From the NCBI RefSeq assembly GCF_040054535.1, contig NC_090785.1, forward strand, positions 17,312,501-17,376,500: 64,000 nt of DNA, given 5' to 3'. This stretch comes from Antennarius striatus. Lineage: Eukaryota; Chordata; Actinopteri; Lophiiformes; Antennariidae. The notes beneath the pieces are model-generated. The model made no database searches, was not told where the DNA came from, and was given only the letters and a program-made list of their open reading frames with translations. The position numbers and the translations under genes were made by a program. Each line of letters starts with the position of its first letter. The first letter of the stretch is position 1. This document shows positions 9,201-61,084 of the stretch, piece by piece.

Positions 9201-12200
9201 TAATATAGACCGAATAAGTTTTGCTAATGTTGCACGAAATGCCAGCCAAGTAAAAACGATTCTGAGGGCCTTTGGCTGGATTTAATATTCTTAACAACAT
9301 CCTCCTTCAGCACTGACGACTTTTCACTGATAAGCGGAGGTGGAATTCTTCCTTATATATATTATATACAATGATTTCTTTCAGACTCTTGTGTTTAGCT
9401 TTTTAGACGGTGAAAGAAGAAATAAATCGCGGCAGCTAAAGGGCCGAAAGAAGTTTCAGTGCAAATGGAAACTTGTCAAAGTGTAAAAAGAAGCAGCGCA
9501 ATGTTGCAGAAGGTCTAACAGCGAATTGGCAACGACGAGGGAATAAATCAAGATGGTGATCTGTCTGTATCTGCAGCTGTTTATGTCAGATGCAAAATAA
9601 AGTAGTGAGAACGGAACAAATATATTCACTCTCCTGTCTACAATAGACAAAACTTGTTGTATTATGTTAACATTTTCACCCAGTGATACAATAATAATCA
9701 CAGTTTTAGCAAAACAAATTTCCCTTATTTTGTCAAGGTTTGACCAACTTTAGTTAACTTCCGTGCAGAACTCCACAGACGAGTATTTTACTGGACTTAC
9801 TCATTGAAGACCAGGTCTGGAGCAAAGTACAGCATAGAGCTGTTGGTCAGGGTGTAAGACCTCCATCCCAATGCAAACACCATCACCCCCATCCATGACA
9901 ACTGAATCACTGACATCTGATCATCCACATGCAGGTCACGGAAACCTGTTAACAACACAGTTTAATCACGCAGATGCTTGTGAGAATCGCTTACATAAAA
10001 ACATTGGAACCGCAGGGGTCATAAAAACAAAATTCTGGCCGCTTTCCACGTTTTTCTTTTGTCTAAAATAATGAACACAGCCCCCTCTAGCGGTCAATAC
10101 AGGAACTGGCTGATTGACGTGTCAACGGATTGGTTGCTCTACCAAGTTTTTCTGGAAGAAAACTTTCAAACTAACCAGTTTCTTATTTGTTTTCCTAATA
10201 GCTTTAAAGTTTTCTTAGATTAAAGTGATGTTGGAAGAACTCAGGTGAGGCTCCTTAGCTACTGACTCATCCAGTGTTTTCCACTCCCTAGCTCAATGTG
10301 TTTTATGTTTTCCTTCACACCAAGTACAAATATTTGGGCAAGTACAGTGGTACCTCTACTTACGAAATTAATTGGTTCTGGAAGAAATGACGTAAGTAGA
10401 AAATGACGTAAGTAGAGACGCGTTTTCCATGCAAACGCCCTAATCCGTTCCAAGCCCCGACATAAATGTTTAATTAAGCATAAAAATGCATCAAAACATG
10501 TAACAAATACATGTTCCGATTAGATTATTGCACAATAAATAAGAGTTGTGCATAATGTAAAAAAACAAAGATTAAAGAATAAAAACGACGGTCATTTACC
10601 TTTAAACTGCTGTCCTCATTGTTTTTTGCCCTCTTTGGTTCATGCGCTCTTGCCTAACGATGTCGAACAACAGAGTGAATTCCAGTCCTCCTTTTAAACT
10701 TCTCCAACCACCCACGTGATGCCTTAAACTCCTTAAACTCCCCTTTGTTTTAATAACGTGGCGATTGAAGATACATTACGGCCATATTCTTTGGCGAGAT
10801 CAACCAAACGCATCCCTTTCTCATGCTTTTCATCTCTTGCTTTGTTTGTACAGACAAAAAAACTCTTTTCCTCATCTTTTCTTTTCCTCTTTTTTCCGTC
10901 ACTTTCTTGGGGTCCATAGCGAATACTCAAAAAGTTAATATATTTACGTAAAACTATTGGAACACTTCATGGGTCGAGGGTCGAATGACAAGGACCCTGC
11001 ATAAACAACGATCTAGCTCCACACAGAGGTCCCTCTTAGCCAATGGGATGCCAGGAAGAAGGAAGATACTAGTTAATAGCCAATGGCAGATCAGCTATGA
11101 GAATGTTGCGTTCAGGAACCTGTGGGAGCTGCGAGTATCAACCCATACTGTATTTTTACCTTTCGTAAGTCGAAATTTCGTTCCTAACTAGAGGCAATAT
11201 TTTCCTGCTGAGAAATTTCGTAAGTAGAAAATTTCGTAAGTAGAGACATTCGTAAGTAGAGGTACCACTGTATTACAAAAAAATCCAAAACACAAATATG
11301 ACTGCTATTGCAGACATTCAACAGCCCTAATAGAAACGCCTATAAGCAGCACGGACTTGTCTGCAGAGTGTAACCTTGGCCTAGACGGCTTTACCTGGAA
11401 TCGCCTTGGCCCAGCGCACCACGGTTACCAGCTGTCTTTCCCCCAGCTCATTGAGGCTGGTGAGCAAGGACGCTGGGCTGTCTGGCAGCGCGTGGTCATG
11501 CCCGGCATTGACCATAGCCGGCTCGATGGTCTGCAAGATGCTGAGCAGTGAGAGGCAGGAGCGCAGGGTCGGAGGGATGCCTAGAACGGCTTGAGATGCT
11601 GTTCAAGACATAGACCGGACAAATGAACAGAAAAATCACACCTTTAGCATTTGGCAGTGATACGTGTGCTTCGTGACAACCATTCCTCACTTTGAGCCAC
11701 AGACGCTGTACTTGTGGACTCACAGGGGATGTCTTTCTTTCTGGTTCGTTCGCCCCACTCTCCGGAGCTCCAGGGAGCCACAGGTTGCTCCTCCTCTCCG
11801 TTCCTGACTTGCGCTGCTCCCTTCAGCCTGCGACCTGGAATCCACAGAGACACGGTCAAAAACAAGAGGGTGAAAAGGATTTCAGACGTTTCTACCCTGA
11901 GGGATCACACAGCCGATAGCCATACAAATCTAGAATTAAAACGGGGACAGAGTTTAACAAATGATTCCAGATTTACAGTGTTCAAAATATTTCATTAATT
12001 TCCTGAAATACATTTCTAACACTGTATTTAAGCTGAAACATTTGCTTATTACATCCTGCTCCAGTATATGCCATGTGTCTGACCACCCTGACTTTCCAAA
12101 ACACACACCACGCATATTTTCCCCTCCATATCGGTGTCTGATTCATCTCTTATTTTTGCTTCCTCACCTTTCAGGCTCATTCCCGACATGAAGCAACGCT

Positions 12201-12476
12201 TCAAACGACAAGAGGCGCAGTTTTTCCGCCTCAATTTGTCGATGGTGCAGTCGTTCCGGCTGGCGCACAGGTGGTTCTGCTTACCTGTGGCACACAAAAA
12301 GTTCTGGGGAATGATAGAGGACTCCAACAATGCCTCTAATTCCACTCATAGCAACGACATGTGGGTGTTTGCTGCTAACAAATAACTCACAATACCTCTT
12401 AATGTCAGGTCACTGTGCCCTGCTTCCACGAATGAGGGAGTGGGTGTAAGAAATTAAATCAGCAGACGGGTAATTG

Positions 12477-12523
<47 letters not shown>

Positions 12524-12667
12524 CACCCACCTGCAGCCGCCCTTTTGAAGAATACTTTGCAGCTGCCACAGGTGACTGCTCCATAGTGACAACCAGAGGC
12601 GTCGTCGCCGCACACCTGACACACTCTCCTGTCTGACAGGTACACACCAGGAAACAAATCATCATGC

Positions 12668-12716
<49 letters not shown>

Positions 12717-15945: not shown

Positions 15946-23439
<7,494 letters not shown>

Positions 23440-47097: not shown

Positions 47098-61021
<13,924 letters not shown>

Positions 61022-61084
61022 CTGAGTGCGTGTACACGCGCACACACACGCACACACACATACACACAAACACGGACACACACG
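61022..61084. repeat. CA-rich tract at arhgef9 splice acceptor
   Basis: Imperfect (CA)n with CG steps. On the transcript it is a (UG)n-like tract ending within about 10 nt of the CAG acceptor (61024-61022). Shorter CA repeats lie at 61195-61216. Confidence 0.9.

Follow-up and report, generated by a model that had tools for sequence, protein, structure and literature searches.

Fish introns reportedly contain intron-bridging structures of the form (AC)m..(GT)n that permit U2AF2-independent splicing, an observation credited to Lin et al. in Genome Research in 2016. At individual splice sites, CA-repeat elements near donors are bound by hnRNP L, and the acceptor of CFTR exon 9 carries a T run between its UG repeat and the AG. 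Two papers describe UG and CA repeats at opposite ends of fish introns that pair and thereby replace the need for U2AF2 (PMC12962679), and dinucleotide repeats at opposite ends of zebrafish introns that do the same (PMC9198270). The second paper also describes circular RNA exons that lie between complementary flanking introns, for example those derived from Alu elements (PMC9198270). TDP-43 binds UG repeats and promotes the skipping of CFTR exon 9, as stated in PMC6965497. Furthermore, PMC12962679 indicates that the pUG fold requires 12 G residues, that the absence of competing secondary structure is a likely prerequisite for this fold, and that UG tracts in fish are accompanied by CA partners.

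The locus considered here lies in a window (the whole stretch of DNA that was analysed) of 64,000 nt from Antennarius striatus (NC_090785.1:17,312,501-17,376,500; C10:17312501-17376500), and the genome that contains it, which was also searched for comparison, comprises 548 Mb in 42 contigs. The window carries an androgen receptor gene (ar) on its minus strand with a complete reading frame. Our model joins nine coding exons that encode 675 residues plus a stop codon, with the frame unbroken across the joins and with introns of 886, 246, 333, 125, 1449, 935, 143, and 2069 nt in order. The identification of the gene as ar in the original prediction was borne out by structure database matches for both domains. 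The top PDB match for the DNA-binding domain is 1r4i (androgen receptor, E = 8.7e-36), and that for the ligand-binding domain is 7rae (ancestral androgen receptor, E = 1.9e-113), with the best progesterone receptor chain (1.7e-87) behind 7rae. The features of the gene, in transcript order, are as follows.

14419-13554, minus strand, 866 nt: coding part of ar exon 1, with donor AAG/GTAAAT placed by frame and phase
13553-12668, minus strand, 886 nt: ar intron 1, whose 5' end is without a CA tract
12714-12670, minus strand, 45 nt: uninterrupted (UG)n tract that abuts the UAG acceptor of ar exon 2
12669-12668, minus strand: acceptor AG of ar intron 1, read directly, with phase kept
12667-12531, minus strand, 137 nt: ar exon 2, first zinc finger of the DNA-binding domain (Pfam zf-C4, E = 1.9e-12)
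12530-12285, minus strand, 246 nt: ar intron 2, which close to its 3' end has no more than a GUGUG remnant
12530-12523, minus strand: donor of ar intron 2, CAG/GTGGGTGC, read directly, with phase kept
12522-12475, minus strand, 48 nt: (CA)n tract, read directly, with G in place of A at 12483 and 39 nt pure
12284-12168, minus strand, 117 nt: ar exon 3, second zinc finger (Pfam zf-C4, E = 1e-9)
11834-11724, minus strand: ar exon 4a, part of the hinge and ligand-binding domain (exons 4a through 8 span 11834-6206)
11598-11395, minus strand: ar exon 4b, part of the hinge and ligand-binding domain
9945-9801, minus strand: ar exon 5, part of the hinge and ligand-binding domain
8865-8735, minus strand: ar exon 6, part of the hinge and ligand-binding domain
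8591-8440, minus strand: ar exon 7, part of the hinge and ligand-binding domain
6370-6206, minus strand: ar exon 8, part of the hinge and ligand-binding domain

The number of coding exons reaches nine by the presence of a 125-nt intron (11723-11599) that interrupts hinge exon 4; the 3' border of exon 4a has two candidate donors in the same phase, one of which was chosen for the model. A figure legend of PMC10014959 gives the last exon of medaka ara as 9 and that of arb as 8, and the gene is ara-like because its nine exons, with the hinge exon split, match this ending of medaka ara. A ligand-binding exon of a second AR-like gene is located at C13:8201684, where 54 residues align at 69% identity. 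Within ar, the intron that separates exons 4b and 5 holds an element (10344-11270) with inverted ends and repeated 16-base units, and it includes a piece of reading frame that we take to resemble a Tigger/pogo-type transposon. Across 6206-62150 the order of genes, presumably ar, moesin-like, asb12-like, and arhgef9-like, appears to us to resemble the human Xq11-12 block around AR.

Direct reading of the sequence upheld the layout claimed for exon 2, namely a 45-nt (UG)n tract touching the acceptor TAG, a 48-nt (CA)n tract beginning 8 nt past the donor, and a 137-nt exon within a loop of about 147 nt. The loop between the tracts spans 12669-12523 (147 nt), the repeats sit 2 nt (UG) and 8 nt (CA) from the splice sites of the exon, and the phases of its acceptor and donor keep the ar reading frame. 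The tracts had been called perfect complements, which is true of the pure UG tract but is too strong for the CA tract, where the single G at 12483 could form a wobble pair with U. The two repeats are the only pure UG/CA tracts of at least 12 nt in the part of the transcript that begins at exon 1 and ends 6 kb beyond the exon 2 start, and the next pure tract upstream, 104 nt in length, is located before the exon 1 start codon. We considered the possibility that the tracts form an intron-bridging structure and rejected it, as intron 1 has only UG and intron 2 only CA; a search of these two introns for other pure UG/CA tracts of at least 12 nt yielded none. The pyrimidine share of the exon 2 acceptor is 0.50, and exon 2 is not the only ar exon with a weak acceptor, because those of exons 3, 4a, 4b, and 5 are likewise pyrimidine-poor (0.50-0.60). 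Upstream of the UG tract there is a branch-point-like CCUAACU (12748-12742), and after it comes a UUAG whose last base is 12725. Splicing to this AG would extend exon 2 by 57 nt in frame, adding mostly alternating Val-Cys encoded by the UG tract. Among the papers listed in searches on the splicing of fish ar and on circular RNAs flanked by dinucleotide repeats, we recognised none that describes a repeat-flanked ar exon 2.

The ability of the two tracts to pair was evaluated with ViennaRNA folds of naked RNA in three wider contexts (516, 633, and 1453 nt). In all three, the 45 UG bases are predicted to pair with nucleotides 12477-12521 (44.7 of 45 pairs expected), and the best fold lies 63-66 kcal/mol below the best fold in which pairs between the tracts are penalised. 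These predictions agree with the earlier proposal that the tracts could pair, and describe a strong 45-bp helix over the 147-nt loop. With the helix in place, bases of the UG tract are predicted to be unpaired with a mean probability of 0.006 (0.37 without it), and those of the CA tract with one of 0.04 (0.49 without it). The helix would not simply bury the splice sites, because the donor bases are predicted to be largely paired whether the helix is present or absent and the acceptor A is predicted to be more exposed when the helix forms (unpaired probability of 0.88 with the helix versus 0.36 without). In these models, the helix conceals both tracts more than it conceals the splice sites.

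Loss of exon 2 shifts the reading frame, as the original prediction stated and as the joined frame bears out. Exon 1 ends with AG and exon 3 starts with GTAAG, which creates an AGG TAA junction carrying a stop codon directly at the junction, after 289 residues and with six junctions still downstream. A premature stop upstream of later junctions is expected to cause mRNA decay. The further claim that skipping would give a receptor with neither DNA- nor ligand-binding domain is formally right, but mRNA decay is likelier than a stable truncated product because the stop lies six junctions upstream of the last exon. Exon 2 skipping is therefore likelier to serve mainly as an off switch for ar than to generate a working variant.

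Our preferred reading, to which we assign a probability of roughly 50%, is that two ordinary microsatellites face exon 2, pair across it, and modestly tune its use according to their length. The UG tract would stand where a pyrimidine tract usually would at the exon 2 acceptor, with the CA tract positioned just inside the donor. Once made, both tracts would pair across the exon, masking the UG and CA repeats and leaving the exon in a 147-nt loop. Most likely the tracts would pair with each other because each is the only long partner of the other in this part of the transcript, and, with both made within 240 nt, they should pair quickly relative to the pace of transcription. The helix would form in only part of the transcripts, in competition with UG- or CA-binding proteins, and either the helix or proteins that hold the UG and CA repeats open would shift exon definition modestly, to an extent that depends on repeat length. 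Most transcripts would thus include exon 2, and the product of its loss would be a switched-off mRNA rather than a working variant. Note that formation of the helix in cells, its influence on splicing, and the identity of the proteins that bind are what we infer here, and that in cells the helix would compete both with proteins and with splicing itself.

How such a layout might arise was assessed by randomly placing the eight pure tracts of at least 28 nt found in the window and scoring exons with UG within 15 nt upstream and CA within 15 nt downstream. Under this model, the probability for any of the seven internal ar exons is approximately 6e-6, and about 0.18 such exons would be expected genome-wide per 200,000 exons (an assumed number). 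The repeat layout of ar exon 2 is not the result of random placement. A fair null is instead the reported preference of UG and CA repeats for the ends of fish introns, and the likeliest origin of the layout is a coincidence of two such intron-end preferences. Fish introns are rich in repeats, and the layout probably arises from them in the ordinary way, with an effect on splicing possible.

The layout recurs at coding exons of this genome and is not special to ar. A search for (TG)6TAG, 120-150 nt, GT, 2-20 nt, and (CA)7 returned 172 raw matches (31 forward and 141 reverse, the latter inflated by repeated ends), compared with 62 for the reversed control (54 and 8). At least 36 distinct places, ar included, are represented among 100 matches listed of the 172. 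Apart from ar, the listed places comprise 35 matches in 32 loci, and an open frame runs through the putative exon in 21 of them. Fourteen of these 21 candidates were submitted to Pfam, leaving out six judged unlikely to be exons and L042. Five of the 14 scored above the curated cut-off (RBBP4/CAF1C, carboxylesterase, LRRNT, CCCAP, and MA3 families), two fell below it (one TPR match with E = 5e-5 and one weaker match with E = 0.045), and seven had no Pfam match. A short exon that lacks a Pfam match is not thereby non-coding, because parts of ar exons 7 and 8 submitted alone also had no match. At one locus, L052 (G000:C8:2567811-2567997), the UG-exon-CA pattern matches on both strands.

The strongest competing explanation is that the arrangement is a neutral by-product, in which the introns of this genome accept UG ahead of acceptors and CA behind donors and the pairing makes no measurable difference to exon 2. 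We regard this as a serious possibility with odds short of even, and complete neutrality is almost as likely as a modest effect of the helix. Two neighbouring genes, which we take to be moesin and arhgef9, are consistent with it. The moesin-like exon (18572-18480, acceptor at 18573) is preceded by a UG-rich tract (18741-18588) that ends about 15 nt before the exon, and direct reading past its donor revealed no CA tract. The arhgef9-like exon, which begins at 61021 (acceptor at 61022), has an interrupted UG-rich tract upstream (61083-61041). With two other genes in the window showing it, UG close to an acceptor is not rare there, and ar exon 2 is set apart by its CA tract rather than by the UG at its acceptor. 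Inverted TG..CA pairs at the ar spacing are also common genome-wide (36,636 raw matches versus 29,323 for CA..TG), which favors neutrality, as does the presence of at least one additional tract of at least 16 nt in the examined flanks of 11 of the 15 other exon cases, where local repeat density may explain the pairs. In the other four (L036, L040, L044, and L051), as in ar, the pair represents the only tracts of at least 16 nt over about 2 kb, which argues against a neutral origin.

Counts of UG acceptors and CA donors, together or apart, bear on the same question. Fifteen raw matches at six distinct places (reversed control, 1) combine a UG acceptor with a GTRAG donor followed by CA; all six appear exon-like by eye and two are supported by Pfam. 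The ar gene is absent from this set because its exon 2 donor is GTGGG. In contrast, requiring UG on both sides of the exon, again with a GTRAG donor, yielded 43 raw matches that fall into nine places; six of these are TG arrays, and no exon was recognised by eye at any of the nine. This difference (0 of 9 versus 6 of 6) speaks against neutrality, with the reservation that selection may disfavor UG just past the donor on other grounds. In favor of neutrality, a UG acceptor with a GTRAGT donor shows no exon excess because its 63 raw matches do not exceed the 65 of the reversed control. Among the 63, the 39 picked by eye as not being plain repeats include 34 with an open frame over 65 bases, a length too short to prove coding. 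When the acceptor was pyrimidine-rich instead, with GTRAG and CA kept, there were 21 raw matches in seven distinct places (control, 8), and a strict version with a T7CAG acceptor gave three matches (control, 0). The pyrimidine acceptor with GTRAGT cannot be used as a denominator because its 987 raw matches fall below the 1218 of the control. A CA acceptor with a CA donor gave 23 raw matches versus 47 in the control, and the exon status of these matches is not classifiable.

Regulation of the type known from CFTR exon 9, wherein TDP-43 on the UG tract would lower exon 2 use more strongly as the tract lengthens, seems unlikely. In its favor, the 45-nt UG tract ends at the acceptor, and binding of UG repeats by TDP-43 with skipping of CFTR exon 9 is described in PMC6965497. 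The original prediction drew this analogy, and it is apt insofar as a UG repeat lies directly upstream of the ar exon 2 acceptor, as in the (TG)m(T)n arrangement of CFTR. It is nevertheless incomplete, since the T run between UG and AG is missing and the ar repeat runs straight into UAG. Also unlike CFTR, the ar UG tract has a CA partner beyond the exon, and if the two pair as predicted, proteins would have to compete with CA for the tract.

It is highly improbable that exon 2 is back-spliced, via the flanking inverted repeats, to form a single-exon circular RNA. Both introns around exon 2 carry complementary sequence, as do the introns beside some circular RNA exons, with 45 bp of predicted complementarity within 10 nt of both splice sites, but a helix so near the splice sites may hinder both reactions. 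Furthermore, the dinucleotide repeats of ar, unlike Alu-derived flanks, lie very close to the splice sites (2 nt and 8 nt away) and enclose one short exon, and a single exon of 137 nt is short for a circular RNA. Least credible of all is a pUG quadruplex formed by the UG tract alone at the acceptor, for which the 22 G residues of the 45-nt tract exceed the 12 required according to PMC12962679, but which is likely disqualified by a competing structure, in that fish UG tracts have CA partners (PMC12962679) and the CA partner of the ar tract takes 45 of 45 UG bases in the model.

If the helix proposed in our preferred reading matters, then two fast-mutating repeats would set the amount of working androgen receptor, which would offer a testable link between microsatellite length and fish sex traits. 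The reported pairing of UG and CA across fish introns would then extend to pairing across exons, with an expected result opposite to that of intron pairing because the exon would be looped out, whereas intron pairing brings the ends of the intron together. If the helix is without effect, then fish exons can accommodate a potential 45-bp duplex in contact with both of their borders, which would place a useful limit on the power of RNA structure over splicing. A much broader proposal, which we consider quite improbable, is that exon-bridging UG/CA helices form a real class in fish, in which single constitutive exons are looped by microsatellites at their own borders whose length sets exon use, such that the androgen response would depend on repeat length through an exon 2 off switch.

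Like the CA elements bound by hnRNP L, the ar CA repeat is located close to a donor, 8 nt inside it, but unlike those elements it is predicted to be paired. The closest resemblance is to the intron-bridging AC/GT structures of fish, as ar also has UG at the 3' end of an intron and CA at the 5' end of an intron, and its predicted pairing is likewise long and near-perfect. In those structures both repeats reside in one intron, whereas the ar repeats reside in two introns and enclose an exon. The ar pair therefore lacks the defining feature of an intron-bridging structure even though the same parts are used, and the arrangement at exon 2 is best described as a single instance of a layout that recurs in this genome and as a geometric variant of a phenomenon already reported in fish.
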